NCBI RefSeq assembly: GCF_028882255.1
Contig: NZ_JARBUY010000002.1
Location: 508,342 to 572,341 of the forward strand
Source: Maribacter polysaccharolyticus
GTDB taxonomy: Bacteria; Bacteroidota; Bacteroidia; Flavobacteriales; Flavobacteriaceae
Direction: 5' to 3'
DNA: 64,000 nt
Position 1 is the stretch's first letter. Each line of letters opens with the position of its first letter. A program made the position numbers and the translations under genes. Positions 34,237 through 52,163 of the stretch are shown here, piece after piece. The notes under the pieces were generated by a model, which worked only from the letters and a program-made list of their open reading frames with translations, had not been told where the DNA came from and made no database searches.

Positions 34237-34416
34237 CTAAACGGCTTTTTTATAATCCGTGGTCAAAACATTCAAAGGGTGGATGTTTGAAGTACTCGAT
34301 TCCGTAATGCTTTGCTTTGATGAATCTTTACTTTTTTTGACACTGTATAGGCTGGTAAGTATCATTCCTACATTAATACAAATCAATATAGAAACCAAAG
34401 TTAAAAATGTAATCAT
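34237..34416 (-). CDS. 59-aa single-pass membrane protein
   Basis: ATG at 34416-34414, TAG at 34239-34237. The N-terminal 25 residues form one hydrophobic helix (MITFLTLVSILICINVGMIL), followed by a polar, Ser/Lys-rich tail that ends NVLTTDYKKAV. The helix shares M1, T3, F4, L11, I14, N15, L20 and S22 with the 29-aa and 37-aa proteins at 51904 and 52050, making it a member of the same tiny membrane protein family. It sits between crcB and another small membrane gene, 820 bp from the PII-amt promoter, and a half nitrogen-type site (34479) lies 63 bp upstream. The function is unknown. Confidence 0.7.
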   Translation of the reverse strand: MITFLTLVSILICINVGMILTSLYSVKKSKDSSKQSITESSTSNIHPLNVLTTDYKKAV

Positions 34417-34528
34417 AAGTTGAGTGCTTTGTTAGTGTAACGTAAAATTAATTCGTTTGGTATGATATACGTAAAAAAATACCTCTAATGTTCTAAAAGC
34501 GAGCATTTTTATGATATGGACAAATATA

Positions 34529-34720
34529 CTATTGGTTTTTGAGTAAATACTTAATTAGGAATAGGATTGTTAAAAAGATTATGAAGACAATTCCTACCCA
34601 TTTGACGCCTTTGTAATATTTTCTATGGAGTTTTATGTCTCTTTTATAGGTGCTTGCAATAATTATGGCGAAAACGATTATAAAAAGAATGGCAAAAATC
34701 AATTGTCCTGTGCTGAACAT
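34529..34720 (-). CDS. 63-aa two-span membrane protein
   Basis: A small membrane protein with helices at about 7-23 (LIFAILFIIVFAIIIAS) and 42-58 (WVGIVFIIFLTILFLIK) joined by a basic loop (TYKRDIKLHRKYYKGVK). It starts MFSTGQ. The positive loop predicts both termini outside, and the end is KNQ. Codon use is coding-like, and I recall similar short proteins in flavobacteria (unverified). It is unrelated in sequence to the 59-aa protein downstream. The role is unknown. Confidence 0.75.
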   Translation of the reverse strand: MFSTGQLIFAILFIIVFAIIIASTYKRDIKLHRKYYKGVKWVGIVFIIFLTILFLIKYLLKNQ

Positions 34721-34878
34721 AATTTATAGGGTGATTGGTTATTGTTTTATTAAAATGATGCGTTTTGGGTTAGGTAAAACATTAGTACCGACTTGTTTCG
34801 TTTCATTGTGGATAAAATCATTGAGAAAATCATCTTTTCTTTTATAATTTTAGGCAAAGCTAATCTAAATTCAGGGAT

Positions 34879-35265
34879 ATGAAGCATAAAATAGGAGCTG
34901 TGGAACAGTTCCATAATTCATTCGGTTTGGGGGTGTCGCCTACCATGAAGGCCGATTTGGGTAAAAAGAAGAATAAGTTGCGATTTGATTTGATGGATGA
35001 GGAAAATAGGGAATATCTTGAGGCGGCCAATAATAACGATCTCGTGGAGGTGGCCGATGCCTTGGGTGATATGCTCTATATATTATGCGGTACCATTTTG
35101 GAACATGGCATGCAGCATAAAATTGAAGAGGTCTTTGAAGAAATACAAAGAAGTAATATGAGTAAGTTGGGGGCCGATGGCAAACCTATTTATAGGGATG
35201 ATGGTAAAGTGCTCAAGGGGCCAAAATATTTTAAACCTGATATTGAACGTATTTTAAATAAATAA
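34879..35265 (+). CDS. MazG-like nucleotide pyrophosphohydrolase
   Basis: A 128-aa all-alpha NTP pyrophosphatase of the MazG/PRA-PH-like superfamily. The metal motif is EENREYLEA (E-x-x-E) followed by VEVADALGDMLYILCG (E-x-x-D), and the C-terminal KLGADGKPIYRDDGKVLKGPKYFKPDI is a conserved substrate-lid segment in this subgroup. It probably removes pyrophosphate from non-canonical or excess nucleotides in the cytosol. The exact substrate is unknown. A TAATTTTA box lies about 30 bp upstream. Confidence 0.85.
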   Translation: MKHKIGAVEQFHNSFGLGVSPTMKADLGKKKNKLRFDLMDEENREYLEAANNNDLVEVADALGDMLYILCGTILEHGMQHKIEEVFEEIQRSNMSKLGADGKPIYRDDGKVLKGPKYFKPDIERILNK

Positions 35266-35431
35266 GTGGGTTCGACCTTGTTTGGCCGTAGTTGTGAACG
35301 ATGGTCGATAATCCTATTGGTTTGGCCGAATATACCGGACCATTTCTTTTTCGTATCCATTTTGGTTCTTCCTTCCTGTGGAAGAGGTAATTGAAATGGA
35401 ATCGTTCCAATGATCTAGAAGCTGAAAAGTG

Positions 35432-36296
35432 TTATTTACTCGAGGGTTTAAAAAAATCGTTGGGCTCAAGATTGCAGGTTTCGATCATTTCAATGGCATA
35501 GTCCAATGTGCCTAAATTCCTATCTGCATTATTGGTGCCCATACTGAATTTTACCCCTGCCGCTTTCGCTTTTTTTATAAAAGTGGCCGAAGGTATTTTA
35601 TAGCGGGCGTTTATTTCTATGGCAATGTGGTTTTCGACAGCGGCATCAATCACTTTTTGCATGCGCCCATCGGTCCATAAGGCATCATACTGGGGTTGGA
35701 GGATATCAGGAAGGTAGGTTGGGTTTACATAGAGGTCGATAGGTTCGTTTTGCATGACCCCGACGATCTTAGCGACCAATTGATCCATGAAATCTTCTTT
35801 GTCGTCCACAAAAACTTCTTCGGGCATCCAAAGGCGCATTCTCCTCCCTTTGCGGTCGGTCCAGGTCATGGCATCGGTAAAGACGTAATCGAAGGTGGCA
35901 ATATTTTCCTTGGAGAACATATTTACCCATTCCCTACCTTCGGCCTGCATGGCCATATAAACCGGGTAGTCCTTGTACTTTCTGTAATTCGCCAAAAGCG
36001 TCGAATCATCGGTTATCGGAAAACCGACCCCGGAATTGAAGGCCACTCCATAAGCAATACCTGTTTCCTTGGAATGTTCCAATAACTCCTCCATGGTAAG
36101 ACCGCCCTTTAAATGGGCGTGGTAATCAACGATGTCGTACCCTGCTTTCTTTAACTCGGCTATTTTCGCTAGAGTGGGGTTTTGGGTTGTTTCCCCTTCG
36201 GTCGCCTTTGGTTCGGCTTTCTTGCTTTTTGTGTTGCAAGCCATTATACTTAGGCCAAATAGGATAAGAACGATGAGGACAGTTGTTTTTTTTCAT
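35432..36296 (-). pseudogene. PHP/amidohydrolase-like lipoprotein; signal peptide out of frame at an A8 tract
   Basis: The main frame (35432-36244) encodes a 270-aa TIM-barrel metal hydrolase with a YDIVDYHAHLKGGLTMEELL metal site (His-x-His), a GVAFNSGVGFP strand and IAIEINARYKIPS near the end. Its only ATG gives MACNTK, which has lost its signal peptide. Upstream in the same frame lies TTVLIVLILFGLSIMAC, a full lipoprotein signal, but the ATG at 36296-36294 reaches it only if the following A8 tract (36286-36293) loses one A; as written the frames differ by one. It is a sequencing or indel error, a phase-variable switch, or polymerase slippage. If read through, it would be a periplasmic lipoprotein. 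Confidence 0.75.
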
Positions 36297-36436
36297 AGGT
36301 AGGTCAATTGAAATTTGTTAACTACTTGTTTATGAAAGTAAGAAATAAATATCGATGTCCAAGGGCAATGCCATTTTGGTACAATTGTCCCTACCATTGA
36401 ATAACAATAATCGCCATCAGGGAAGGTTTCCTTCGA

Positions 36437-37501
36437 CTAAAGCTTTACCCGCCAGCCAAATTTGTCCTCAGCCCTATTGTATTGGATATCGGTAATCCTA
36501 TTTTTTAGCATGGTTGCATAGTTATCGGAAAGTTCGGGTAGATCATAATCCACATCACGGAAACCAAAAGTGGAAATGGGTGAAATCACGGCAGCGGTAC
36601 CGGCCCCGAACATTTCTTTTAGGGAGCCGTTATTGGCAGCTTCGATGATCTCGGCCACGGTGATTTTCCGTTCTTCGACCGCAATACCTTCGTCTTGGGC
36701 TATTTTAAGGATACTCTTACGGGTTATACCATCTAAGATTCGATCACTTGTAGGGGCGGTTAACAAGGTGTCGTTAATCCGAACGAAAATATTCATTGCC
36801 CCGGCTTCTTCGATATACTCATGGGTATTGTCGTCTGTCCAGATGACTTGGTTGTACCCTTTCTCAAGGGCAAGTTGGGTAGGGTAGAACTGTCCGGCAT
36901 AATTACCGCCTGCCTTGGCAAATCCTACGCCGCCGTTGGCGGATCTTGAATATTTCTCTTCAATCAACACCTTTACCTTTCCGGAGAAATAGGCTCCTGA
37001 AGGGGCGAAGGCTATGATGAATTTATATTCATCGGCCGGTGAAGCATGGAAACCTGTTCCGGACGCAAAGATAAATGGACGGATGTATAAGGAACTTCCC
37101 GGGGTTTGGGGTATCCAATCCTTTTCCAACTTCAATAGGGCCATAAGTCCTTCCATGAAATAATCTTCAGGAATTTCAGGTATCGCCATTCTCTTGGCCG
37201 AGATGTTCAAACGTTTGCAATTGTCCGTAGGGCGGAAAAGGAATACATCACCTTTCTCGTCTTTATAGGCTTTCATGCCTTCGAAAATCGACTGCCCATA
37301 ATGGAATATCTTGGCAGAGGGGTCAAGGCTTATCGGTTGGTAAGGGATGATTTCCGGAACCTTCCAGGAGCCCTCTTTATAATCACAGACCAACATATGG
37401 TCTGTGAAAACATTTCCGAATGCCAGATTGTTAAAATCTACCTGATTTATTTTAGAGGTTTTTGCCTTTTCAATTTTTATGTTCATCATCTTGGTCTCCA
37501 T
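36437..37501 (-). CDS. ilvE: Branched-chain amino acid aminotransferase
   Basis: A 354-aa PLP fold type IV transaminase acting on Leu, Ile and Val and their keto acids. IFHYGQSIFEGMKAY, FLFRPTDNCKRLN, the PLP-Lys segment VGFAKAGGNYAGQF, IEEAGAMNIFV, and GITRKSIL with FGAGTAAVISPI are standard for the large IlvE subgroup. The ATG at 37501 is followed by alternatives at 37489 and 37486. It diverges from the DUF4920 gene, with upstream sequences overlapping. Confidence 0.96.
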   Translation of the reverse strand: METKMMNIKIEKAKTSKINQVDFNNLAFGNVFTDHMLVCDYKEGSWKVPEIIPYQPISLDPSAKIFHYGQSIFEGMKAYKDEKGDVFLFRPTDNCKRLNISAKRMAIPEIPEDYFMEGLMALLKLEKDWIPQTPGSSLYIRPFIFASGTGFHASPADEYKFIIAFAPSGAYFSGKVKVLIEEKYSRSANGGVGFAKAGGNYAGQFYPTQLALEKGYNQVIWTDDNTHEYIEEAGAMNIFVRINDTLLTAPTSDRILDGITRKSILKIAQDEGIAVEERKITVAEIIEAANNGSLKEMFGAGTAAVISPISTFGFRDVDYDLPELSDNYATMLKNRITDIQYNRAEDKFGWRVKL

Positions 37502-37596
37502 GGGATAATTTTTACCGAATAAAATTAGAAAATTATCGCATGGGAATCTTCCTTTTTTCTTTAAAATTGATCAATTTTACCCTTCTAATCCTAAAA

Positions 37597-38088
37597 TTGG
37601 CAATTACGAAAGGTTTTAACACGTTTGTTGTATTATCCTTATTCCTTGTGGTGGGTTATGCCCAGGATAGGAAAACGGAAATGTCCTCATTCGGGGATGG
37701 GATACAGGCCAAGGGTAGCATTTCCGATTTGGAAATGTCCCGTAAGTATGCTTCCATGCAATTGAACGATACCATTCAGGTAAAATTTAACGGGGTTGTC
37801 AAAGAAGTTTGTCAGGCCAAAGGCTGTTGGATGAAGGTGGCATTGAATGATGGGGAAGAAGTTATGGTGCGATTTAAGGATTACGCATTTTTTATGCCCA
37901 AGGATATCGCCGGTAAAGAAGTGGTCGTCAATGGTTTGGCGTTTATTGAGGAGATGGGTGTTGAGGAGCAAAAACATTATCTTGAAGATGCCGGAAGGCC
38001 AGCGGCCGAGATCGAAAAGATCGCCGAGGTAAAGAGGACTTTGGGCTTCGAGGCCGACGGGGTTTTGTTGAAAGGAAAAAAGAATTGA
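37597..38088 (+). CDS. DUF4920 exported protein
   Basis: A DUF4920 protein of about 163 residues. After a hydrophobic signal (FVVLSLFLVVGYAQ) come FGDGIQAKGSISDLE, the OB-like core FNGVVKEVCQAKGCWMKVAL with two Cys, GEEVMVRFKDYAFFMPKDI and a Glu/Lys-rich end. The Cys pair in CQAKGCW suggests metal binding or a disulfide. The start is uncertain: TTG at 37597 gives a normal signal peptide but overlaps a TAAAATTG -7-like box, while the ATG at 37540 gives an unusual double hydrophobic stretch. The stop overlaps the mnmD start (TGATG). Confidence 0.82.
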   Translation: MAITKGFNTFVVLSLFLVVGYAQDRKTEMSSFGDGIQAKGSISDLEMSRKYASMQLNDTIQVKFNGVVKEVCQAKGCWMKVALNDGEEVMVRFKDYAFFMPKDIAGKEVVVNGLAFIEEMGVEEQKHYLEDAGRPAAEIEKIAEVKRTLGFEADGVLLKGKKN

Positions 38089-38756
38089 TGCAAAGGGAGA
38101 TCATAACTACGGCGGATGGTTCAACGACCATTCAGATAAAGGATTGGAACGAACAGTACCATTCCAAACATGGGGCCATACAGGAGGCATATCACGTTTT
38201 CATTAAACATGGCCTGGACCTATTCCGGGATAAAAAGGAAAAGGTACAGCTATTGGAAATCGGTTTTGGTACCGGTTTAAACGCCTTGATAACACTGATC
38301 GAAGCTTCGAAATCGGGTATGGGGATAGATTATTACGGTGTTGAGGCGTTTCCCGTTTCAAAGGAGGAATTGTCCCAATTGAACTACATAAGGGAATTGG
38401 ATGCATTGGATTTCGAAGAGCGATTCAATCGGATGCACAGTGGGCCTTGGGAAGCGCCCTTGGGGATTTCAAATGGTTTTTCACTGTGTAAGAAACAATG
38501 TGATTTTAGGCAAATAACTTTTGAAAATTGCATAGATCTTATTTATTACGATGCATTTGGGGCTAGGGTGCAACCCGAATTGTGGACAGTGGATGTTTTT
38601 GAGCTAATGTTCAAGGCCCTTAAAAAGAACGGGGTATTGGTTACCTATGCAGCTAAAGGAAGCGTGCGAAGGGCCATGCAAGATGTTGGTTTTCAGGTGG
38701 AACGATTGCCAGGGCCACCGGGAAAAAGGGAGATGTTGAGGGCAGTAAAAGGTTAA
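38088..38756 (+). CDS. mnmD: tRNA 5-methylaminomethyl-2-thiouridine methyltransferase (MnmD)
   Basis: A 222-aa SAM-dependent methyltransferase completing mnm5s2U at tRNA position 34. It corresponds to the stand-alone MnmD half of E. coli MnmC. TTADGSTTIQIKDWNEQYHSKHGA at the N-terminus, LLEIGFGTGLNALIT (SAM site), YGVEAFPVSKEEL, DLIYYDAFGARVQPELW and VTYAAKGSVRRAM are diagnostic. The ATG at 38088 overlaps the preceding stop, so the gene is coupled to DUF4920. The MnmC oxidase half is absent here. Confidence 0.95.
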   Translation: MQREIITTADGSTTIQIKDWNEQYHSKHGAIQEAYHVFIKHGLDLFRDKKEKVQLLEIGFGTGLNALITLIEASKSGMGIDYYGVEAFPVSKEELSQLNYIRELDALDFEERFNRMHSGPWEAPLGISNGFSLCKKQCDFRQITFENCIDLIYYDAFGARVQPELWTVDVFELMFKALKKNGVLVTYAAKGSVRRAMQDVGFQVERLPGPPGKREMLRAVKG

Positions 38757-38879
38757 TGGTTTGCCATAAATCTTAATTTTTTCTGAATTTCATCCATAAT
38801 CGGAATCCTACATCGATAATACTGTTAAATCCAAACTAAAATAGTACTTCGCCGTTTTAAGATCCCATACCTTTAAATT

Positions 38880-39794
38880 ATGAAATTATTGATTACCGGA
38901 GCGACAGGATTAGTTGGTAGGGCCATTGTTGAATTGAGCAATAAGCATGGGATTCCTGTAAATTACTTGACCACGAGTAAGGATAAAATTGTGTCGAACG
39001 AGAATTTTCAAGGCTTTTATTGGAATCCGGAGAAGAATAAGATCGATTTGGATTGTTTTGAAGGGGTGACCTCGATTATCAATCTTGCAGGTTCGAACAT
39101 TGCCGAAAGATGGACAGCGGAGTATAAGAACCAAATCCTCTATAGCAGGATAAATAGTTTAAAGACACTCAACTATGCTTTGGGTAAAATAGACACCCAA
39201 GAAATAACAACTTTCGTATCGGCATCCGCAATAGGGGTCTACCCGAGTTCCCTAGATCATTTATATACCGAGGAAGACAAGGTTGTTGACGATAGTTTCA
39301 TAGGTGAGGTGGTCCAGAAGTGGGAAGAAGAAGTCGATGCACTATCCCATTTTGGTTTTCCGGTCGCGAAAATCAGGATTGGTTTGGTATTGTCCAAAGA
39401 TGGGGGCATGCTTCCCAAATTATCCCGACCGATCAAATCGTTTGTCGGGACGACGTTTGGTAAGGGTAAACAGTGGCAGTCCTGGATCCATATCGGTGAC
39501 TTGGCAAAACTCTTCCTATTCGTTGTTGAAAATAAATTGGAAGGCATCTATAATGGGGTGGCCCCCAATCCCGTGACCCATAAAAAGATGGTACGTGAAT
39601 TGGCAAAAGTCTTTAAAGTGCCTCTTATTTTGCCTCGTATCCCCCGATTTACCATGAAATTGATCCTTGGCGAAATGTCCGATCTATTATTTGCCAGTCA
39701 GCGGGTAAGTAGTAAAAAAATTTCCGAAGAAGGATTTGTATTCGATTATCCGAATATCGGGAATGCCCTCGATTTTTTTTACAAAGGGGATTGA
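38880..39794 (+). CDS. TIGR01777-family NAD(P)-dependent epimerase-like protein
   Basis: A 304-aa atypical short-chain dehydrogenase (extended, SDR39U1-like). The N-terminal dinucleotide motif LITGATGLVGRAIV (TGxxGxxG) is followed by SIINLAGSNIAERWT, SASAIGVYPSS, KIRIGLVLSKDGGMLPKL, WIHIGDLAKLF and a C-terminal DUF1731-like segment (PLILPRIPRFTMKLILGEMSDLLFASQRVSSKKI). The usual SDR Tyr-x-x-x-Lys is not obvious. The substrate is not known for the family. A TACCTTTA box lies just upstream. Confidence 0.92.
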   Translation: MKLLITGATGLVGRAIVELSNKHGIPVNYLTTSKDKIVSNENFQGFYWNPEKNKIDLDCFEGVTSIINLAGSNIAERWTAEYKNQILYSRINSLKTLNYALGKIDTQEITTFVSASAIGVYPSSLDHLYTEEDKVVDDSFIGEVVQKWEEEVDALSHFGFPVAKIRIGLVLSKDGGMLPKLSRPIKSFVGTTFGKGKQWQSWIHIGDLAKLFLFVVENKLEGIYNGVAPNPVTHKKMVRELAKVFKVPLILPRIPRFTMKLILGEMSDLLFASQRVSSKKISEEGFVFDYPNIGNALDFFYKGD

Positions 39795-39904
39795 AGTTTT
39801 CCTTTCCACCCATGTACTATCCCTGAAAATCTTTCCTGAATATCTTCTTTTGGCTTTTTTGTAACCATACCGTTGGCGTAAAAATGGTAAAGTTTGGTGA
39901 CATT

Positions 39905-39936
39905 TTGACATTTTTAAATAAATGGCAGTACTTTTG
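39905..39936 (+). promoter_or_regulatory. Promoter of the grpE-dnaJ operon
   Basis: TTGACA at 39905-39910 and the -7 box TACTTTTG at 39929-39936, 21 bp between the TTG and the box. This is one of the best matches in the window to the Bacteroidota TTG/TAnnTTTG promoter. No CIRCE element was seen. Confidence 0.78.
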
Positions 39937-39973
39937 CCGTCATACGAAAAGAGTTTTAAAACTGAATCCGAAA

Positions 39974-40534
39974 ATGAGTGATAAAAATAAGACCGAAGAG
40001 GTTAACGAGACCATTCCCGATGAACAAGCGGTAAACGATACCGGGAAGGAACAAGAAGAAGTACCGACCGAAAAAGAGGAGCAGTCTGTGGAAGAACAGC
40101 TTCAAGACGCCTTGGCCAAGGAGAAAGATAAGTTCCTCCGGTTGTTCGCCGAATTCGAGAATTATAAAAAACGAACTTCCAAGGAACGAATGGATCTGTT
40201 CAAAACGGCAGGACAAGAGGTCATCGTATCCTTACTTCCTGTTTTGGATGATTTTGAACGGGCCTTAAAGGAATTGTCAAAATCCGAGGATAAGGAAATG
40301 TTCAAAGGTGTTGAATTGATCAACGGAAAATTCAGGGATACTTTGAAATCGAAAGGCATGGAGGAAATGGATGTTAAACAAGGGGATGCCTTTGATGCCG
40401 AAATACATGATGCGATTACACAGATACCCGCTCCCGATAAAAAGCTAAAAGGAAAGATTGTTGATATTGTTGAACGGGGGTATAAATTGGGCGACAAAAT
40501 AATACGCCATCCTAAAGTAGTGGTAGGTAATTAA
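39974..40534 (+). CDS. grpE: GrpE nucleotide exchange factor
   Basis: A 186-aa DnaK cochaperone. An acidic N-terminal tail (KTEEVNETIPDEQAVNDTG...) leads into a long coiled-coil (DALAKEKDKFLRLFAEFENYKKRTSKER) and the four-helix and beta-wing domain (VIVSLLPVLDDFERALKEL, DAEIHDAITQIP, KIVDIVERGYKLGDKIIRHPKVVVG). The ATG at 39974 begins MSDKNK; the longer frame from 39884 would include the promoter. It lies 9 bp upstream of dnaJ in one operon. Confidence 0.97.
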   Translation: MSDKNKTEEVNETIPDEQAVNDTGKEQEEVPTEKEEQSVEEQLQDALAKEKDKFLRLFAEFENYKKRTSKERMDLFKTAGQEVIVSLLPVLDDFERALKELSKSEDKEMFKGVELINGKFRDTLKSKGMEEMDVKQGDAFDAEIHDAITQIPAPDKKLKGKIVDIVERGYKLGDKIIRHPKVVVGN

Positions 40535-40543
40535 AATTGGAGT

Positions 40544-41665
40544 ATGAAGGAAGATTATTACGAAGTACTCGGCATAAGTAAAAATGCCACGGCAGCGGAA
40601 ATAAAAAAGGCCTATAGAAAAAAGGCCTTGGAATATCACCCCGACAAAAATCCCGGGGACACCAAAGCAGAAGAACTTTTTAAAAAATCGGCGGAAGCGT
40701 ACGAAGTACTGAGTAACCCGGATAAAAAGGCGCGTTACGATCAGTATGGCCATGCGGCTTTTGAAGGTGCCGGTGGTTTTGGCGGCGGCGGAATGAACAT
40801 GGACGACATTTTCAGTCAGTTCGGGGATATTTTCGGTGGCGCATTCGGCGGTGGATTTGGTGGTTTCAGTGGTTTCGGCGGTGGCGGTGGCCAACGGCGG
40901 GTCAAAGGCAGTAACCTTAGGATAAGGGTTAAATTGACCTTGGACGAAGTGGCCAATGGTGTTGAGAAGAAAGTGAAAGTAAGGCGTAAGCTGCAGGCAC
41001 CGGGCGTAACCTATAAAACGTGTAGTACTTGTGGGGGCCATGGTCAGGTGACCAAAATAACGAATACCATTCTGGGTAGAATGCAAACAGCCGTCGCATG
41101 TTCAACATGCGGGGGAAGTGGTCAAATCATCGATAAAAGGCCAAGTAATGCGGATGCCCAAGGCCTTGTGGTCAAGGAGGAAACCGTTTCCATAAAAATC
41201 CCAGCCGGGGTTGAGGATGGTATGCAATTGAAAGTTCCGGGTAAAGGAAACGAGGCGCCAGGTAACGGAATTCCGGGAGACCTTTTGGTGGCCATAGAGA
41301 CCCTTGATCACGAAACCCTGAAACGGGAAGGTGATAACCTGCATTATGATCTATATATAAGTTTTCCAGAGGCTGTTTTGGGTACATCCAAAGAGATAGA
41401 TGCAGTAGGTGGAAAAGTACGTATAAAATTGGAATCGGGAATACAATCCGGCAAGATCTTGCGATTAAGGGGGAAAGGTATTTCCAGCTTAAACGGATAT
41501 GGTAGCGGTGACCTTTTGGTACATGTGAACGTATGGACGCCTAAAGAACTCAATAAGGAGCAAAAGGAGTTTTTTGAGCGTATGGACGGTAATGAAAACT
41601 TTGTGCCAAAACCGGAAAAATCCGACAAATCCTTCTTTGAAAAAGTGAAAGATATGTTCTCTTAA
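40544..41665 (+). CDS. dnaJ: DnaJ cochaperone with a two-motif zinc region
   Basis: A 373-aa Hsp40. The J domain with HPD at 32-34, a Gly/Phe-rich linker (about 74-117), the substrate-binding domains and the C-terminal dimer region are present. The zinc region has only two CxxCxGxG motifs, CSTCGGHG (160-167) and CSTCGGSG (186-193), rather than four. Only one zinc site (four Cys) can form, so the second centre needed by E. coli DnaJ for DnaK handover is absent. This short form is, from memory, common in flavobacteria. A terminator follows at 41756. Confidence 0.96.
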
Positions 41666-41755
41666 GGATAATGATTTGAGAATTAAATAAAAAACGTATA
41701 TTTGATTCGATATTGGATTACCAATATTAATTTTCTTTTTCATAGCAATTTTTTT

Positions 41756-41792
41756 CCCATCCTTGATTCATTTAAGGGTGGGTTTTGTTTTT
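41756..41792 (+). terminator. Terminator of grpE-dnaJ
   Basis: A 9-bp stem CCCATCCTT/AAGGGTGGG (one T-G pair), 9-nt loop, then TTTTGTTTTT. Confidence 0.85.
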
Positions 41793-42394
41793 ATACGACT
41801 TTTGGTTCGGTTCATCCTTGCTGCCGGGAGAACGTAGATGTAAGTCTAGGGGGGTTTAAGGAAAGTTCCTTCCCGATAGATCCCAGTGTTTGCACATATC
41901 CTAGGTATTAACGGGAATCATGGTCCATAACGGTATTTGTGCAAAAATGGTTGGCGAACCCAAAAGGAGGGTTCCCATCAACCCCTACGTCAAGTGGTGT
42001 ATCAAAAAAAAAGTCGATCGGCGATTTTTACCCCTCCAATTTTTTCCCAGGAAATTCCATTGGTTGCTCTATGTTTTCGTGAATCTGCGATTTCAAGCAT
42101 GTCCTATGAAACCCAATAAGGGGTTCGTTAAGGTCGTTTTCAAAAGTATGCAGGACAGCAATAAAACGAAACCGAAGCTTCACATATCCAGGTTTACGTT
42201 ACTGCAAATCATGGGCCAAACGAGCGGGTAGGGCAGGTGTTCGACATTGCCTAAACAGCATCGACCCCAAACTATTGGTGAGGATCCTTAGATTCATTTT
42301 GTTTTAAGGTTTTTAACGATTTTTGAAGCCATTGTCCCGATGTTTAATTCTTAGTATAATTGGAATTATCGAAGGGTCTTTTAAAGCAATTCTA
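41793..42394. other. 600-bp gap without a recognisable gene
   Basis: No frame with a credible start and composition was found; the longest (103 codons from 41920) is rich in Lys, Pro and Cys with no family resemblance. GAACCCaaaaggaGGGTTC near 41957-41973 is a small perfect dyad. The stretch could hold a noncoding RNA or a decayed gene. Confidence 0.4.
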
Positions 42395-42402
42395 TATCTT
42401 TG
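42395..42402 (+). promoter_or_regulatory. -7 box of the ABC operon
   Basis: TATCTTTG, 15 bp before the ATG at 42417. It excludes the longer upstream reading of the ATPase gene. Confidence 0.75.
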
Positions 42403-44682: not shown

Positions 44683-44684
44683 TC

Positions 44685-45578
44685 ATGGCACAGGAAACCG
44701 ATAAATTGGAAGAAATCATAAAAGAGGATATCTGGGGTTCGATCCAGGATTTCCTTAATTGGGGATTTCATATGACTATAGGCGATAAATCATTGCATGT
44801 GACCATTGGGTTGTTGATAATGATCACGATCGCGTTTATGGCAACGGCCTTCATTCTAAAATGGATTCGGAAAATCATAACCCGTAAGATGGTAAAAGAA
44901 GACGAACTTAAGTTTGTCAGTGTTTTCAAGTTCATTAATTATGGGGCATATTTGGCGGTAGTCCTGATCATATTGAGTATGGCGGGTATCGATATTACCA
45001 TTCTATTGACCGCTTCAGCCGTACTTTTCGTTGGTTTGGGCTTGGCCTTACAGGATCTTTTCCAGGATATTATCGGAGGAATATTGATCATTCTTGATAA
45101 ATCGTTGAATGTGGGGGATATTATTGAGTTGGAAGGTAAGGTCGGAAAGGTCTATGAGATCAAGCTCCGCACCACCAGGGCCATTACCAGGGATGACAAG
45201 GTAATCATTGTTCCCAACCATAAATTTATAAGTGATACCATATATAACCATACCCAAAACCATAAAACGACAAGGGAAAGGGTACAAATAGGGGTAGCTT
45301 ACGGTAGTGATGTAGCTTTGGTGACAAGGATACTTGAGGAAATAGCAAAAAATGAAAAAGGAATCCTGCAAAACCCCAAACCCTTTGTTTTGTTTGAGGA
45401 TTTTGGAGATTCGGCCCTGTTGTTCTCCATTTACTACTTTACGAATGATAGTTTTGCCGATACCAGGGTTAAGAGCAAGGTGCGTTATGCCATCGATGCC
45501 AAATTCAGGCAACATAATATCTCGATACCCTTTCCCCAAAGGGATGTACACCTTATACAACCTACGAAAAAAATATGA
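44685..45578 (+). CDS. Mechanosensitive ion channel, MscS family
   Basis: A 297-aa small-conductance mechanosensitive channel protecting against hypo-osmotic shock. After an amphipathic N-terminus come three helices, then the pore helix LLTASAVLFVGLGLALQDLFQDIIGGILIILDKSLNVGDIIELEGKVGKVYEIKLRTT, the MscS beta-domain, and a C-terminal alpha/beta vestibule. The ATG at 44685 follows the permease stop by 2 bp; an ATG at 44667 would overlap it. It is in the same run as the exporter, so an envelope or ion-stress role for the operon is plausible. Confidence 0.93.
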   Translation: MAQETDKLEEIIKEDIWGSIQDFLNWGFHMTIGDKSLHVTIGLLIMITIAFMATAFILKWIRKIITRKMVKEDELKFVSVFKFINYGAYLAVVLIILSMAGIDITILLTASAVLFVGLGLALQDLFQDIIGGILIILDKSLNVGDIIELEGKVGKVYEIKLRTTRAITRDDKVIIVPNHKFISDTIYNHTQNHKTTRERVQIGVAYGSDVALVTRILEEIAKNEKGILQNPKPFVLFEDFGDSALLFSIYYFTNDSFADTRVKSKVRYAIDAKFRQHNISIPFPQRDVHLIQPTKKI

Positions 45579-46465
45579 AAAATAGTTCGCTAAGGACGAC
45601 TATACGAATGGTTCTCCTGCTTTTGTGGGGTGGGGCCAACGGTCTGGTATACGCCCAATCCCCTGATGTTTTCAGATTGGAATATATGATCATGCCAAAA
45701 AATAAGGCTGATGCCCAGCTTTCACGTTATAAGTTGGTAGCCAATATGCCCTTAAAGGTCAGGGAAGCCGACAATGTCATCGTCGGGGCGGAATATAATT
45801 ATTTGGCCTATAAACTTGGGGGTAATGAATATTTCGACAGTGAGGGTTTGGAAAATCTTCATGTGGTCGATTTAAACCTGGCCTATGTCTACAAACACAA
45901 TGATAATTGGCGATTCATTGGGGTCCTTACCCCGAGATTGTCTTCTACCCTTACCAACCCACTTGAAAATGGGGACGTTTCGATAAATGTTACCGTCGGT
46001 GCTTTTAAAGAGCGACAGGACATTGATAAGCCGATGCGTTTGGTGTTGGGTTTAGCCTATAATTCAACGGTATCATTACGGATCCCTTTGCCCTTTGTGT
46101 ATTATGAAAAAAGATTCCATCCCAATTGGTCCTATGTGGTCGGAGCACCCAAAACCGGATTCAAATACCATATTGATGACAACCATTTGATCCAGACCGA
46201 ATTTATCCTGGATGGGTATTTTGTAAACCTTCAAAATAACATCATTTTACCCAATACGGGTTTTGCATCATCGGTTTCCTCGTCGGCCGCCTTGTTAACA
46301 ATCGGGTATCAATATAACATATCAAAAATTATGTCGTTCTACGGTTATATCGGTCATACTGTTTTCCAGGATGGGGTACTACGTGATGAGGATAGGAACG
46401 ATGTTTATACCTTGAACGACGAACCTAGTCTGTATTTCAGGACGGGATTTAGAATAGGAATATAA
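45575..46465 (+). CDS. DUF6268-type outer-membrane beta-barrel protein
   Basis: A 296-aa exported protein (signal ending GLVYAQ) with repeated amphipathic strands, for example VIVGAEYNYLAYKLG, WRFIGVLTPRLSSTL, ALLTIGYQYNISKIMSFYGYIGH, and a final strand SLYFRTGFRIGI. It fits the DUF6268 outer-membrane family. It overlaps the channel gene by 4 bp (ATGA) and ends 11 bp before the response regulator, so it belongs to the five-gene run. The function is unknown. Confidence 0.82.
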   Translation: MKNSSLRTTIRMVLLLLWGGANGLVYAQSPDVFRLEYMIMPKNKADAQLSRYKLVANMPLKVREADNVIVGAEYNYLAYKLGGNEYFDSEGLENLHVVDLNLAYVYKHNDNWRFIGVLTPRLSSTLTNPLENGDVSINVTVGAFKERQDIDKPMRLVLGLAYNSTVSLRIPLPFVYYEKRFHPNWSYVVGAPKTGFKYHIDDNHLIQTEFILDGYFVNLQNNIILPNTGFASSVSSSAALLTIGYQYNISKIMSFYGYIGHTVFQDGVLRDEDRNDVYTLNDEPSLYFRTGFRIGI

Positions 46466-46476
46466 AAAAATACAAT

Positions 46477-47640
46477 ATGTCAAAGATTTTGGTAGTGGAA
46501 GATGAATCGGCAATACGGAGGGTGTTGGTGAAAATTCTTTCCGAAGAGAACGAAACCTATCAAGTAGAAGAGGCCGAGGACGGTTTAAAAGGATTGGAGG
46601 CGGTTAAGAACAATGATTACGATTTGGTATTGTGCGATATCAAAATGCCAAAAATGGACGGGGTTGAGGTACTCGAAGCGGCCCGAAAGATTAAACCGGA
46701 GGTTCCTTTTATTATGATTTCGGGACACGGGGACCTGGATACCGCGGTGAATACCATGCGAATCGGGGCATTTGACTATATTTCGAAACCACCGGATTTA
46801 AACCGTCTTTTGACCACCGTAAGAAATGCTTTGGATAGAAAGGAATTGGTGGTAGAGAATAAGAAATTGAAGAAAAAGGTCAGTAAGAACTATGAAATGA
46901 TCGGTAATAGTAAGGAAATCAACGCTATTAAGGATATCATTGAAAAGGTGGCTCCTACTGATGCCCGGGTATTGGTAACGGGGGCAAACGGTACGGGAAA
47001 GGAATTGGTTGCCCATTGGATCCATGAAAAAAGTCCAAGAAGTTCCGCCCCTTTTATCGAAGTGAATTGTGCGGCCATTCCCTCTGAATTGATAGAAAGT
47101 GAGCTTTTCGGTCATGTGAAAGGGGCATTTACCTCTGCCGTTAAGGATAGGGCGGGCAAGTTCGAGGCTGCCAACAAAGGAACCATATTTTTGGATGAAA
47201 TTGGGGATATGAGCCTCTCGGCCCAAGCAAAGGTGCTGCGCGCCTTACAGGAGAATAAAATCTCTAGGGTCGGCTCTGATAAGGACATTAAAGTGGATGT
47301 TAGGGTCATTGCCGCTACGAACAAAGACCTTGCCGAAGAAATCAGGGAAAATAGATTCAGGGAAGATCTTTATCATCGCTTGGCGGTGATATTGATCAAG
47401 GTACCCGCCCTAAATGATCGGAGGGAAGATATTCCCTTGCTGATCGATTATTTTGCGGATAAGATCGCCGGTGAACAGGGTATTACCCCAAAAGCCTTTT
47501 CAAAAGGAGCCATTAAACTCCTGAAAAGTTACGATTGGACCGGTAACATCCGGGAATTGCGTAATGTGGTGGAACGTCTAATCATTTTGGGAGGTCAGGA
47601 AGTGACCGAGGAAGACGTGAGGCTCTTTGCCAGTAAATAA
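46477..47640 (+). CDS. NtrC-like response regulator without DNA-binding domain
   Basis: A 387-aa protein: receiver domain (1-120, phospho-acceptor Asp54 in LVLCDIKMP), a short coiled linker, then an AAA+ sigma-54-activator domain with Walker A GANGTGKE (169-176), L1 loop GAFTSA (216-221), Walker B TIFLDE (236-241) and a sensor II region NIRELRNVVERL. It ends ten residues after the AAA+ lid, so the C-terminal Fis-type HTH is missing. The L1 loop has Ser where sigma-54 activators have Gly (GAFTGA). It may act from solution or have a different partner. The cognate kinase is not in the window. Confidence 0.93.
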   Translation: MSKILVVEDESAIRRVLVKILSEENETYQVEEAEDGLKGLEAVKNNDYDLVLCDIKMPKMDGVEVLEAARKIKPEVPFIMISGHGDLDTAVNTMRIGAFDYISKPPDLNRLLTTVRNALDRKELVVENKKLKKKVSKNYEMIGNSKEINAIKDIIEKVAPTDARVLVTGANGTGKELVAHWIHEKSPRSSAPFIEVNCAAIPSELIESELFGHVKGAFTSAVKDRAGKFEAANKGTIFLDEIGDMSLSAQAKVLRALQENKISRVGSDKDIKVDVRVIAATNKDLAEEIRENRFREDLYHRLAVILIKVPALNDRREDIPLLIDYFADKIAGEQGITPKAFSKGAIKLLKSYDWTGNIRELRNVVERLIILGGQEVTEEDVRLFASK

Positions 47641-47646
47641 GGTTTT

Positions 47647-48330
47647 TTAGTTACAGGAATCAAGCCTTTCCATGGCTTCGGCCGTTATTTGTTTTGTTTT
47701 GAAATTATAGTATTTCTTGCCTTCTGAAAGGTTTGGGATCAATAGTTGTTGTTCGCAATGTGAATAAATGTTTTTGGCAAAGGCCTTGGCCGAGGCGCAA
47801 TCAACCGAATTGATGATATTCTCAAGGGATTCCCGATATTTTTCCAATGAAGCATCGATTTTTCGCTCCAGTTCCTTTTCGTTGGGGATGGGCTTCGCTA
47901 TTTTTTCTGTTTTTGGGATAATGGTATTCAGGGCCAACAAGTCGGTCCCATATTTGCTTTCATGAAGACCATGATCCCCTAGTGATTCAATACCTTCCTT
48001 AAGGTGTTCCAAAGCCCTGTTCAATAGAATACGTGTGCTGTTCAGGGAAGTTGCCCTGGTGGCTAAAATCAAGTCATATTTACCGTCCTCGATACTACTT
48101 TCCGCATAGACGCAACCACAATCCTGAATGTTTTGTTTGGATTTTTCTATGGCGTTGATCGCTTTGTAGGCATAATATTTTGCCTGATTGATATCATCGA
48201 CCCCAATCGATTTTTCGATTTGGGATTTTGAATAGTTCATATTGGAACTGGCATACTCACATGTTTTGTCGACAAGAAAGGAAGAAAACAAAATCAATGA
48301 TGCAACCGCAACTAAGGAATGGTTCTTCAT
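47647..48330 (-). CDS. Exported hypothetical protein, helical
   Basis: A 227-aa protein with an N-terminal signal-like segment (VAVASLILFSSFLVDKTCEYASS) and a mostly alpha-helical mature part (NQAKYYAYKAINAIEKSKQNI, ILLNRALEHLKEGIESLGD, ELERKIDASLEKYRESLENII). It contains seven Cys, including CGC at about 71-73, likely to form disulfides. No domain is recognised. The stop faces the response-regulator stop 6 bp away (convergent). The regular helix lengths recall haemerythrin-like or TPR-like bundles, but no metal motif is evident. Confidence 0.75.
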   Translation of the reverse strand: MKNHSLVAVASLILFSSFLVDKTCEYASSNMNYSKSQIEKSIGVDDINQAKYYAYKAINAIEKSKQNIQDCGCVYAESSIEDGKYDLILATRATSLNSTRILLNRALEHLKEGIESLGDHGLHESKYGTDLLALNTIIPKTEKIAKPIPNEKELERKIDASLEKYRESLENIINSVDCASAKAFAKNIYSHCEQQLLIPNLSEGKKYYNFKTKQITAEAMERLDSCN

Positions 48331-48529
48331 AATATAAGTCTTAGGTTCGTTGTAAAATTTGGGAATATTACATGGTAAAGCTACATAGGGAACGTGCTAT
48401 CACCATATTTATTCGATAGAATGTATGAAGTTTCCCATAAGTGGGGCATAGGGGCACAAAGCAAGGCCAAATAATCATGTTTTCAACCTCTTGGGTAGTT
48501 CAACCATAAAATATAATTATATTCAAGGC

Positions 48530-49408
48530 ATGGATAATATTGATATGAATACATATAGGGTAAATTCGACCACGGATTTGGCGAATACCCCCACTTTTGA
48601 AAATTTCGGGATGACCGATAAGCAATTGAAAAAAAAACTGGTAAAGGTCCGTAGGGAACTGGCAGACTTTCAAGATATCCTTTATGCCCATGGTAAGTAC
48701 AGTGTACTGATCTGTCTACAGGGTATGGATACTTCCGGGAAGGATAGCCTTGCCCGGGAGGTGTTCAAGGATTTCAATGTTCGTGGTGTGGTAGCACATA
48801 GTTTTAAGGTCCCTACCCCCTTGGAATTAAAACACGATTACCTCTGGCGCCATTATATTGCATTGCCCGCACGGGGCAAATTCGGGATTTTTAACCGAAC
48901 CCATTATGAGAATGTGTTGGTTACCCGGGTGCACCCGGAATATATCCTGGGCGAGAATATACCCGGAATAGAACAGGTTTCCGATATAGACCAGAATTTT
49001 TGGGATACAAGATTCGAACAAATCAATAATTTCGAAAAGCACTTGGTCCAAAACGGTACCCTGATCTTTAAATTTTATCTACATCTTTCCAAAGAAGAGC
49101 AGCGGCAAAGACTCCTACGTAGGTTGCGTTTAAAACGAAAGAACTGGAAATTTTCTCCCGATGACCTAAAAGAGCGGAAGTTATGGGCAGACTATCAGCG
49201 CTGTTATGAAGAGGCAATTCAAAGGACATCGAAGCCCAAAGCCCCATGGTTTATTGTGCCTGCGGATAGTAAAAAGGCGGCTCGGCTCATAGTCGCTGAA
49301 ATTTTAATGCAAGAGTTAAAAAAATACAAAGATATAGTCGCTCCTGTACTCGATGATAAAATAAAGGCTAATTTAGACGACTATAAACAACAATTGGAAA
49401 GGGAATGA
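48530..49408 (+). CDS. Polyphosphate kinase 2 family protein
   Basis: A 292-aa PPK2-type phosphotransferase using polyphosphate to phosphorylate nucleotides. Walker A LQGMDTSGKDSLAREVF, the lid and Walker B region LWRHYIALPARGKFGIFNRTHYENVLVTRVHPE, and the basic lid RLLRRLRLKRKNWKFSPDDLKER match class I or III PPK2. PWFIVPADSKKAARLIV closes the domain. The ATG at 48530 (MDNIDM) was chosen; 48545 is possible. It overlaps the M28 peptidase start by 4 bp. Direction (NDP or NMP) cannot be decided. Confidence 0.93.
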   Translation: MDNIDMNTYRVNSTTDLANTPTFENFGMTDKQLKKKLVKVRRELADFQDILYAHGKYSVLICLQGMDTSGKDSLAREVFKDFNVRGVVAHSFKVPTPLELKHDYLWRHYIALPARGKFGIFNRTHYENVLVTRVHPEYILGENIPGIEQVSDIDQNFWDTRFEQINNFEKHLVQNGTLIFKFYLHLSKEEQRQRLLRRLRLKRKNWKFSPDDLKERKLWADYQRCYEEAIQRTSKPKAPWFIVPADSKKAARLIVAEILMQELKKYKDIVAPVLDDKIKANLDDYKQQLERE

Positions 49409-50787
49409 GGTATTTGAAATTTATCGTATTGTGCGTACTGCTAACTTGGCAAGGGTATTCACAATCTGAAGATGAAAAACAGATCAAGACCATTTATAAA
49501 ACCGCTTTGACCCAAAGTAAATCCTATGATTGGCTTAATTATCTCTCGAATCAAATAGGGGGCAGGCTATCGGGGTCGATTCAGGCACAACAGGCCGTGG
49601 ATTATACCAAGGCACAATTGGATTCCTTAGGTTTGGACCGTGTATGGCTTCAGCCCGTCATGGTGCCCAAATGGGTGAGGGGCACTCCTGAATTCGCTTA
49701 TGTGGAAACCGCTCCAGGAATAACCACGAACCTTCCGATTTGTGCCCTTGGCGGCTCAGTGGCTACCCCTTTGCAAGGTGTAAAAGCCGGTATGGTCGAG
49801 GTTAATGGTATTGAGGAATTGGAGCTTTTGGGGAAAGAAAAAATTGAAGGTAAAATCGTCTTTTTCAATAAGCCCATGGATCCGACCCTGATCAATACGT
49901 ACGAGTCGTATATGGGTTGTGTCGACCAACGCTATGCCGGAGCCAAGGAGGCAGCTAAATATGGAGCGGTAGGTGTTATCGTTCGGTCCTTGAACTTAAG
50001 GCTTGACGATTATCCGCATACGGGTTCCATGGGGTATGGGGATACCGAATCCGCACAAAGGATTCCTGCGGCAGCGATCAGTACGAACGGTGCCGATTTC
50101 TTAAGCACAACGCTTAAACTGAGTCCCAATGCCAATTTCTATTTTAAACAATCCTGTAAGGTTTATGATGATGTACAGTCGTACAATGTTATCGGGGAAA
50201 TTCGGGGGAGTACCTATCCGGATGAGATCATTGTGGTCGGGGGACATTTGGATTCCTGGGATTTAGGGGATGGCTCACATGACGATGGTGCCGGTTGTGT
50301 TCAAAGTATGGATGTATTGCGGCTTTTGAAAGAAAGTGGATACAAACCCAAAAGAACGATTAGGGTTGTATTGTTCATGAATGAGGAAAATGGTTTACGT
50401 GGAGGGAAAAAATATGCCGAAGTGGCAAAAAGTAAGCAAGAAAACCATATCGTCGCCTTGGAGAGCGATTCCGGGGGCTTCACACCGAGAGGGTTTTCAT
50501 TTGACTGTTCAGAAGCCAATTATGGGCAAGTGAAAAGTTGGGGGTCGTTATTTGAACCTTACTTGATACATATGCTAATAAAAGGCCATGGTGGCGCCGA
50601 TATCGGTCCCTTAAAGGATAGTGATATGGTATTGGCGGGATTACGACCGGATTCACAACGGTATTTTGACCATCATCATTCAGCCTATGATACCTTTGAG
50701 CATGTGAATAAAAGGGAACTGGAACTCGGAGCCGCTGCCATGACCAGCTTGGTATACCTTTTTGATACTTACGGGGTCGTAAAATAA
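49405..50787 (+). CDS. M28-family zinc aminopeptidase, exported
   Basis: A 460-aa exported peptidase (signal ending WQGYSQ). A protease-associated (PA) domain is inserted at about 120-250. The zinc ligands follow family order: VVGGHLDSWDLGDG, HDDGAGCVQ, FMNEENGLRGG, ALESDSGGFTPRG and FDHHHSAYDTFEHV. This is the M28B-type organisation of carboxypeptidase Q-like enzymes, cutting peptides in the periplasm. It is translationally coupled to PPK2 (ATGA). Confidence 0.95.
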   Translation: MRYLKFIVLCVLLTWQGYSQSEDEKQIKTIYKTALTQSKSYDWLNYLSNQIGGRLSGSIQAQQAVDYTKAQLDSLGLDRVWLQPVMVPKWVRGTPEFAYVETAPGITTNLPICALGGSVATPLQGVKAGMVEVNGIEELELLGKEKIEGKIVFFNKPMDPTLINTYESYMGCVDQRYAGAKEAAKYGAVGVIVRSLNLRLDDYPHTGSMGYGDTESAQRIPAAAISTNGADFLSTTLKLSPNANFYFKQSCKVYDDVQSYNVIGEIRGSTYPDEIIVVGGHLDSWDLGDGSHDDGAGCVQSMDVLRLLKESGYKPKRTIRVVLFMNEENGLRGGKKYAEVAKSKQENHIVALESDSGGFTPRGFSFDCSEANYGQVKSWGSLFEPYLIHMLIKGHGGADIGPLKDSDMVLAGLRPDSQRYFDHHHSAYDTFEHVNKRELELGAAAMTSLVYLFDTYGVVK

Positions 50788-50882
50788 GGTCAACCTTTTA
50801 ATTGGGGTGTTTTCCGCTCCCCATCCGTTTAACATACCGAACGGAAGAAAAGACCTAAGTTCTTTTCCCTAACTAATTTGTA

Positions 50883-50890
50883 TATCTTTG
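50883..50890 (+). promoter_or_regulatory. -7 box of the peptidylprolyl isomerase gene
   Basis: TATCTTTG, 24 bp before the ATG at 50914. Confidence 0.72.
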
Positions 50891-50913
50891 CAGCTCATTA
50901 AAAAAAGCGAAAA

Positions 50914-51846
50914 ATGCAAGACGGAATCTACGCAAAATTCAACACTTCGAAAGGAGAGATACTTGTCAAACTCACGTATGATAAAACGCCCGGAACGGTG
51001 GGTAACTTCGTTGCCTTGGCAGAAGGGAAAATGGAGAATAGGGCCAAGGCCCTTGGGGAGCCTTATTATGACGGATTGAAATTCCATAGGGTAATCCCCG
51101 ATTTCATGATTCAAGGTGGTTGTCCTTCAGGGACGGGTACCGGTGATCCTGGATACAAATTCGACGATGAATTCCATCCGGAATTGATCCATGATACCCC
51201 AGGGGTACTTTCCATGGCAAATGCAGGCCCAGGAACCAATGGAAGTCAATTTTTCATTACCCATGTGGCTACCCCCTGGTTAGATAACAAGCATACGGTT
51301 TTTGGTCGAGTGGAAACCGGTCAGGAAGTAGTTGATTCCATAGCACAAGCAGATACGATTGAAAGTTTGGAGATCATAAGGGTAGGTAGTGAGGCCGAGA
51401 ATTGGGACGCCTTGGGGGCTTTTAAGTCCTTTGAAAGTTCAAAGGAAAAAAGACTTGCTGAGGAAAAGGCCAAACAGGCTGCGGAATTGGACAAGGTAGC
51501 TGCCGGTTTTGATGAGACAGGGAGTGGACTTCGCTATAAGATCATTCAAAAAGGAAGTGGGGCAAAGGCGGAAGCCGGACAAACGGTTTCAGTGCATTAC
51601 GAAGGTTCTTTGTTGAACGGGCAGGTTTTCGATTCCTCATACAAGAGAAACCAACCTATCGATTTTAAATTGGGTGTCGGACAAGTAATCCCTGGATGGG
51701 ATGAAGGTATAGCACTACTGCAGGTAGGGGACAAGGCACGTTTCGTAATACCATCCAATTTGGCCTATGGCAGCGCAGGTGCCGGAGGGGTCATACCACC
51801 GAATGCGACGTTGCTCTTCGATGTGGAATTGATGGAAGTGAAATAG
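50914..51846 (+). CDS. Cyclophilin-FKBP fusion peptidylprolyl isomerase
   Basis: A 310-aa protein fusing two unrelated isomerases. Residues 1-165 form a cyclophilin ([56 protein letters not shown]). A charged helix ([22 protein letters not shown]) links to an FKBP domain at 200-310 ([62 protein letters not shown]). No signal peptide is seen, so it should be cytosolic. Both active sites look complete. Confidence 0.95.
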
Positions 51847-51869
51847 ACATCAAGCCATGATGAATATAG

Positions 51870-51899
51870 GGCCTCGGTTATTGACCGGGGCCTTTTTTT
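51870..51899 (+). terminator. Terminator after the isomerase gene
   Basis: A 9-bp stem GGCCTCGGT/ACCGGGGCC (one T-G pair), loop TATTG, then seven T. Confidence 0.88.
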
Positions 51900-51903
51900 G
51901 TTT

Positions 51904-51993
51904 TTATCTTGTGCGCTGTTGAATCATGCTCGCTAACAGCATTACAATATTGATCAACACTAAAATGCCAATAACAATGATAAAGGTAGACAT
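51904..51993 (-). CDS. 29-aa single-pass membrane protein
   Basis: ATG at 51993-51991, TAA at 51906-51904. A hydrophobic helix (MSTFIIVIGILVLINIVMLL) is followed by a short polar end SMIQQRTR. It shares M1, T3, F4, L11, I14, N15, L20 and S22 with the 37-aa protein next to it and with the 59-aa protein at 34237. The gene lies 56 bp downstream of the 37-aa gene on the same strand, so the pair may be one transcript. Its stop abuts the isomerase terminator. It is far below usual gene-calling length; expression is inferred from the conserved pattern. Confidence 0.6.
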   Translation of the reverse strand: MSTFIIVIGILVLINIVMLLASMIQQRTR

Positions 51994-52049
51994 GGTTTAA
52001 TAATTTAAATGGTTCGTTTTATGGTATAACAACGATAACTTCTTAAACC

Positions 52050-52163
52050 CTACTTTGTTTTGTTGAAAATGTTGAAAATATTTTTTGTACTTGCAATGCT
52101 CATTAATATAAGAGCAATATTGATAATGAGTAATGCGAGTAAAATGGTGATAAAGGTGGTCAT
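52050..52163 (-). CDS. 37-aa single-pass membrane protein
   Basis: ATG at 52163-52161, TAG at 52052-52050. The N-terminal helix MTTFITILLALLIINIALIL is followed by MSIAS and a basic, Phe/Asn-rich tail (NIFNIFNKTK). It is a tandem paralogue of the 29-aa gene downstream. The upstream 190 bp up to the cold-shock gene are AT-rich and contain that gene's terminator (52300). The function is unknown; such peptides often modulate a membrane complex, but no partner is evident here. Confidence 0.6.
   Translation of the reverse strand: MTTFITILLALLIINIALILMSIASTKNIFNIFNKTK

Follow-up and report, generated by a model that had tools for sequence, protein, structure and literature searches.

What are three very short reading frames, strung over two places of one flavobacterial chromosome, for, and are they genes at all? 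The question is raised by a stretch of 64,000 nucleotides from Maribacter polysaccharolyticus (assembly GCF_028882255.1, contig NZ_JARBUY010000002.1, positions 508,342 to 572,341; this whole stretch is referred to as the window), in which an earlier note had pointed out three minus-strand open reading frames (ORFs), designated here S, T1 and T2. These indeed translate from ATG starts into proteins of 59, 37 and 29 residues, respectively:

34237..34416, minus strand: S, a 59-residue protein with an N-terminal hydrophobic helix and a basic tail, ATG start
52050..52163, minus strand: T1, a 37-residue one-helix protein, ATG start
51904..51993, minus strand: T2, a 29-residue one-helix protein, ATG start

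The reading favoured below, held as a complete chain with only slightly more belief than doubt, is that these are stress-induced one-span helices which would pair sideways, through a face centred on an asparagine, with a shared membrane partner or with each other.

Alignment of the three proteins yields eight invariant columns, M1, T3, F4, L11, I14, N15, L20 and S22, in agreement with the eight identical helix positions reported earlier. Across the S and T relatives, M1, F4, L11, N15 and S22 are kept and T3, I14 and L20 are merely frequent; F4, L11, N15 and S22 occur together in all twelve S members, and the end of the S tail (KIYPLDL..YKKAV) is conserved in many relatives. A fourth form, designated U, retains L11, N15 and S22 in eight of eight members, though not always F4. 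Judged by these residues, S, T1, T2 and U appear to constitute one family, characterized by an N-terminal helix with F4, L11, N15 and S22, and conservation in relatives supports the earlier proposal of a single family with one hydrophobic helix and a mid-helix Asn. The suggestion that such genes escape gene-calling limits applies to T1 and T2, whose median lengths in relatives (28 and 27 residues, respectively) are near or below them, but not to S, as 59 residues is not below usual gene-calling limits.

A profile built from the three members returned matches in 37 of 60 genomes (E<=1, own genome counted), including all eleven same-genus relatives, in which the best matches are at the same two places, approximately 15-19 kb apart where one contig holds both. 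The frames are thus conserved rather than mostly broken among the homologous loci, this being the comparison on which the earlier note had staked its proposal. Among fifteen tandem loci (own genome plus fourteen, the regions having been fetched because of profile matches) T1 is present in all, and S is intact in 14/14 fetched S loci; the profile search did not detect S in G004, a genome that is 68% complete. The synonymous-versus-nonsynonymous comparison that the earlier note proposed returned, for same-genus pairs, median NG86 dN/dS values of 0.17 for T1 (23 usable of 66 pairs), 0.24 for T2 (15 of 55) and 0.20 for S (49 of 55), with dN below dS in each usable pair, the remaining pairs being saturated or unusable and most T1 and T2 pairs being saturated at synonymous sites. 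Mean differences per codon position are 0.38/0.15/0.58 for T1, 0.38/0.19/0.59 for T2 and 0.30/0.18/0.49 for S. Because dN is lower than dS and differences are distributed over the codon positions in this manner, T1, T2 and S are, by all indications of the sequence comparison, protein-coding genes under purifying selection. The same codon pattern, as in the values for T1 just given, speaks against the idea that the conserved units are non-coding RNAs in which the ORFs are incidental. A conserved stretch without a conserved ORF, preceded beside recA by the promoter element ECF1 introduced below, lends this idea some substance, as the corresponding sigma factor may drive RNAs; nevertheless, conserved start and stop codons, and conserved residues with free third positions, render it hardly credible.

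To gauge breadth, S, T and U profiles were compared with one and the same set of 397 Flavobacteriaceae genomes, with E-values taken per genome and with profiles that cross-match: S was matched in 96 genomes at E<=0.01 (of which about 4 could be chance), T in 187 at E<=0.1 (about 40) and U in 240 at E<=0.01 (about 4). A further profile, A4, matched 14 of 345 genomes of the phylum at E<=0.01, twelve of these (own genome counted) from the same family. Spread beyond the Flavobacteriaceae was rejected: the two A4 matches outside the family are weak, one having an internal stop and the other lying inside a 390-residue frame. Larger fusion proteins carrying the helix, which might have hinted at its function, were likewise dismissed, as the five phylum matches that were inspected consist of four U genes beside ung and one S gene. 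Chance resemblance is ruled out by the profile matches in relatives, together with a motif test, presented below, that involves no residue filter.

Regulation, on which the earlier note is silent, is the most informative part of the case. Aligned DNA upstream of T1 contains a conserved AACGCAACC followed by CATC, and that upstream of T2 a conserved GTAGGGT followed by TGTT. These are designated ECF1 and ECF2, being predicted promoter elements of the extracytoplasmic function (ECF) type, and are located in the window as follows:

52218..52244, minus strand: predicted ECF1 promoter of T1, CGCAACC-N15-CATCA
52028..52053, minus strand: predicted ECF2 promoter of T2, GTAGGGT-N15-TGTT, overlapping the T1 stop codon

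Elsewhere in this genome, ECF1 precedes an operon adjoining recA that encodes a lipoprotein, an ECF sigma factor and a putative anti-sigma factor (the sigma factor was assigned by Pfam; recA, the lipoprotein and the anti-sigma factor, the latter without a Pfam match, were named by reading). A search for this sigma factor in 30 genomes identified 30 loci in 29 genomes, and ECF1 (GCAACC-N14-17-ATC, same strand) was found upstream of the sigma gene in 27 of these loci. The exceptions are L194, of 56% identity, L195, which is a second copy with 51% identity, and L170, where the contig starts 433 bases upstream. Among close genomes, ECF1 is located within 100 nt upstream of T1 in 12 of 15 cases, of T2 in none of 12 and of S in none of 14. 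U genes possess ECF1 in 20 of 29 cases and ECF2 in none. A strict form of the ECF1 pattern, which misses T1 sites with ATCA in place of ATCT, occurs 20 times in ten genomes as compared to 4 times for the reversed control; seven of the 20 sites precede the lipoprotein-sigma operon, three belong to U genes, four lie approximately 1.25 kb away and face the opposite direction, i.e., on the other side of recA as judged from the layout in the own genome, and the remaining six are scattered (L304 not being resolved). T1 and U thus mostly share a promoter-like element with the operon of the sigma factor that adjoins recA in this genome, forming a predicted ECF1 regulon to which neither T2 nor S would belong.

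The own genome contains ten ECF2 sites, whereas the reversed pattern yields two; a pair of the ten flanks a FecI-like sigma gene, which is followed by FecR. The element is present on both sides of this gene in 20 of 21 orthologues (74-100% identity), the 21st ending too soon for one side. Within 100 nt upstream, ECF2 was found at T2 in 12/12 close genomes, at T1 in 0/15 and at S in 0/14, and T2 thus shares its promoter-like element with the sigma/FecR locus (a predicted ECF2 regulon). Among the genomes searched, the sigma factor that adjoins recA in this genome is present in 29/30 and the FecI-like one in 22/22.

Both elements were also sought by themselves, i.e., in a test free of any residue filter, using a gene adjacent to T2 as the anchor:

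50914..51846, plus strand: peptidyl-prolyl isomerase/FKBP-like gene, convergent neighbour of T2, named by reading

A scan of named genomes with this gene (first match Maribacter aquimaris, at 90% identity; the window's own record was possibly left out) provided 80 FKBP loci, in which 1 kb beyond FKBP was examined. ECF1 was present at 29 loci (50 two-base-block shuffles: mean 0.48, maximum 2) and ECF2 at 32 (mean 0.28, maximum 3), followed by a short hydrophobic ORF in 26 of 29 and 30 of 32 instances, respectively. The distinct ORFs anchored in this way, 25 for ECF1 and 30 for ECF2, were picked by start, length and hydrophobicity only, and they nonetheless carry the family residues: F4, L11 and N15 in 25/25 and S22 in 24/25 of the ECF1 set, and F4 in 29/30 and L11, N15 and S22 in 30/30 of the ECF2 set. 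Conversely, family ORFs found by their pattern occur in 45 of the 80 loci (Maribacter, Zobellia, Arenibacter, Cellulophaga, Muricauda and others), and of these 68 ORFs 26 have ECF1, 32 have ECF2 and none has both, with 0/68 for reversed-pattern controls in 230-nt upstream windows. A second set (L085-L114) gave a corresponding result, 21 of its 49 ORFs having ECF1, 18 ECF2 and none both.

In that second set the distance from motif to ATG is 56-82 nt, and such short leaders speak against the peptides being stress-induced, membrane-depolarising toxins akin to TisB or Hok. Their very small size, hydrophobicity, basic tails and stress-type promoters would suit a toxin, and there are weak matches to the putative bacteriocin YxzE (best E 0.011); however, purifying selection and a synteny kept over many genera would not be expected of one, and, although Pfam includes type I toxin models, none (TisB, Hok, Ibs or Ldr) was named among the Pfam matches at E<=0.1. 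A toxic role is accordingly regarded as very improbable.

S has a different kind of upstream region:

34443..34471, minus strand: conserved S promoter region, a CGTATAnnATACCAAAC-like stretch followed by a TAnnTTTG-like -7 box

In this genome the box reads TAATTTTA, with one mismatch to TAnnTTTG, which is described as the box of the main sigma factor (PMC7366714). All 14 S loci lack an ECF motif within 100 nt upstream, and a set of 24 S loci, amounting to 152,472 bases when both strands are counted, gave three matches to ECF2 and none to ECF1.

If the promoters differ, what do the products have in common? In T1 and T2 conservation peaks at positions 4, 8, 11, 15, 18 and 22, the most conserved of the seven registers (mean 0.93 versus 0.63 elsewhere for T1, and 0.94 versus 0.56 for T2; p of 0.0001 and 0.0000 as printed, with 20,000 permutations). 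In S, too, this register ranks first among the seven for conservation (0.86 versus 0.63, p 0.014), a value that is partly circular as the members were gathered with a pattern holding F4, N15 and S/A/G22. Its spacing is that of the a/d face of a zipper with Asn at the 'a' position, resembling GCN4 and designed membrane zippers. The helix-helix pairing suggested by the earlier note is made more plausible by this shared a/d conservation in T1, T2 and S. Tails carry a net positive charge in 25/25 T1, 29/30 T2 and 41/42 S proteins, and by the positive-inside rule this charge would place the C-terminus in the cytoplasm, i.e., a predicted N-out/C-in topology. An AlphaFold model of S alone, which carries no information on pairing, consists of a helix at residues 2-32 with a poor tail (mean pLDDT 69.2; 87, 93 and 71 for the first three blocks of ten residues).

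These observations are most readily accommodated by the following scheme. S, T1 and T2 would be single-span inner-membrane mini-proteins of one family, with T1 owing its transcription to the ECF sigma factor whose gene adjoins recA in this genome, T2 to the FecI-like ECF sigma factor (C14:282.8-283.3 kb) or a close paralogue, and S to a housekeeping-type promoter. Each helix would present a common face, formed by F4, L8, L11, N15, L18 and S22 with a/d spacing and Asn at 'a', and would pack sideways through it on a shared membrane partner or on fellow members of the family. Distinct stresses would in this way bring one kind of helix to one and the same site. ECF1 activity could yield T1 and, by read-through, T2, and ECF2 activity T2 alone, an arrangement made conceivable by the overlap of ECF2 with the T1 stop codon. 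A more ambitious version, which we consider doubtful, is a modular membrane relay: interchangeable one-helix zippers, one per promoter, would compete for one common membrane partner, possibly the constitutive S, or assemble on it, and unlinked ECF pathways would be integrated in the membrane by helix swapping, the gene's place having changed between clades (csp-FKBP versus ung) with the sigma wiring kept.

The principal rival is that T1 and T2 are feedback peptides, each of which would bind the anti-sigma factor partnering its own sigma factor, or the protease of that anti-sigma factor, and tune the response in the way that MgrB acts on PhoQ. The rarity of ECF1 sites, among which the small gene figures, is in its favour, G087 and G231 having one strict site each, which is that of the small gene; MgrB itself provides a precedent (PMC2789325). 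A single face common to T1, T2 and S despite their differing promoters, with S lacking an ECF motif, fits a common partner better, and we regard private feedback loops as unlikely.

Several observations count against the shared-partner scheme, or limit its scope. T2 was found in 12 of the 15 tandem loci and not in those of G001, G012 and G022, and T1 lacks the ECF1 pattern in G006, G011 and G029 (three of the 15 close genomes), as do nine of the 29 U loci. In the own genome, enrichment of the loose ECF1 pattern is weak, with 21 matches against 10 for its reversed form. Neither motif precedes 10 of the 68 pattern-found ORFs of the named loci and 10 of the 49 in L085-L114, and the locus sets overlap and share ancestry, so that no p-value is attached to the motif counts. 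Family ORFs were not found at 35 of the 80 named FKBP loci; these include the loci of Psychroserpens burtonensis and Flavobacterium covae, as well as L233, whose sequence stops short. T loci L122 and L123 have no csp match. L19, invariant in T1 (25/25), is positioned off the a/d face; U tails are often acidic, and the topology of U may differ; the synonymous saturation and the partial circularity of the S register, both noted above, belong here as well. Furthermore, of five FecI-like paralogues at 42-49% identity, two have no ECF2 match and three (L219-L221) have matches elsewhere, which in L220 and L221 are 180-250 nt upstream of the sigma gene on both strands. Recognition of ECF2 may consequently not be confined to a single FecI-like sigma factor, and T2 may answer to more than one; because the element is not exclusive to one of them, our confidence in the scheme was lowered slightly, from a little above even to barely above it.

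The gene surroundings provide a further line of evidence, and the neighbours in the window are as follows:

52354..52548, minus strand: csp, a cold-shock protein gene, upstream neighbour of T1, named by reading
51868..51892, no strand: GC-rich, terminator-like inverted repeat between T2 and the FKBP gene, read by eye
33771..34145, minus strand: fluC/crcB, the next gene after S, Pfam CRCB
34532..34720, minus strand: hydrophobic 63-residue ORF before S

Among the 30 best T loci (own counted), csp was recognised in 30 and FKBP in 29, and among five further T loci (L122-L125 and L127) FKBP in five and csp in three. FluC and PII are present in all 24 of the best S loci from other genomes and the 63-residue ORF, whose best NCBIfam match is a pilin-like conjugal protein below cut-off, in 21 of them; best-scoring S and T loci lean towards close relatives, and in more distant genera S still follows the small ORF and its other neighbours vary. 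U adjoins ung in 30 of the 30 best U loci. Such surroundings bear on whether these proteins, in the manner of KdpF or CydX, are small accessory subunits lending stability to a given membrane complex. Size, a single helix and long-term conservation would be compatible with this role, as would, for S only, its position beside fluC; nevertheless, T1 and T2 stand alone between csp and FKBP, there are several paralogues with different promoters, and neither KdpF nor CydX is among the Pfam and NCBIfam matches of family members at E<=0.1, rendering a subunit role rather improbable.

Two other positional explanations were discarded. T2 cannot be a leader peptide of FKBP, with which it is convergent. 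The earlier note had placed S near the PII-amt promoter, yet this link is not upheld and is considered incidental: fluC lies between S and PII-amt, and in L120 neither fluC nor PII accompanies S in the 4 kb retrieved. The PII-amt region itself (30292-33528) contains two PII-like genes (30292-30630 and 33190-33528) that flank a porin-like gene and amt, the Pfam check covering the second PII and amt.

Additional family members were encountered in passing. In some genera the csp-FKBP locus holds extra members without ECF1 or ECF2 (L098 2018, L104 2002 and L113 1328), and others are located at further chromosomal places (L121 1946 and L126 1981), one of them beside NusG-like and LytTR-like genes, as named by reading. 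Outside the window, a second ECF1 element was observed on the other side of recA (L148, L303, L305, L307 and L314); the stretch of approximately 70-80 nt that follows it is conserved in five same-genus genomes (own counted), contains no conserved ORF and represents a candidate sigma-dependent small RNA. At the start of the window (538-6774), a sulfatase-like gene cluster is followed by a fucosidase-like gene, both by reading, which suggests the use of sulfated algal polysaccharides.

Bacteroidota are rich in ECF sigma factors, few targets of which have, to our knowledge, been established (compare PMC12596196). Here, two sigma factors that are near-ubiquitous among the genomes searched each have a predicted target of fewer than 40 residues. 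If this is correct, the peptides would belong to the core response of two stress pathways and give direct access to each, and the predicted elements would make both regulons readable from sequence in many genomes. The family may thus offer a tractable way into the membrane action of little-studied stress systems.

Comparison with described proteins begins with the databases. S, T1 and T2 reach the cut-off of no Pfam or NCBIfam model; relatives show scattered weak matches, the best being UPF0239 for one of twelve S members (E 0.00098), and no NCBIfam model matched any of 22 members trimmed to 27-30 residues. One of 20 members matched a PHROGs entry (E 0.035), comparison with solved structures returned nothing convincing (best E 0.12), and a gathering-threshold Rfam scan of the window returned one tRNA only, antisense RNA not having been searched for. 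No description of such a family was found in the titles and abstract openings consulted, which left subscription papers mostly uncovered, and the family is apparently undescribed. As to the helix face, designed Asn-containing transmembrane zippers place a single Asn at an 'a' position of their membrane-embedded a/d heptad, and the layout predicted here from conservation is the same. Among promoters, motif SM6 of Flavobacterium psychrophilum is of ECF type, as are ECF1 and ECF2, but differs in having a CGT -10 box (PMC9723704). The TGTT of ECF2 resembles the TGTT at about -10 of a non-canonical promoter of B. thetaiotaomicron (PMC12596196), and GCAACC-N15-CATC was not met in those parts of the Bacteroidota promoter literature that were compared. 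Stress-related one-span small proteins are already known as a kind, as MgrB and YohP illustrate. MgrB, a 47-residue, PhoP-induced feedback inhibitor of PhoQ, is a small inner-membrane protein, as predicted for S, T1 and T2, in its case from a stress regulon (PMC2789325), and YohP of E. coli is a 27-residue membrane protein with one transmembrane domain, as predicted for this family (PMC7549839). Both are likened by description, not by sequence: unlike MgrB, the present proteins comprise several paralogues with different promoters, and unlike YohP and comparable single-span proteins that E. coli associates with stress, they would form a paralogous family with a common Asn-centred face.

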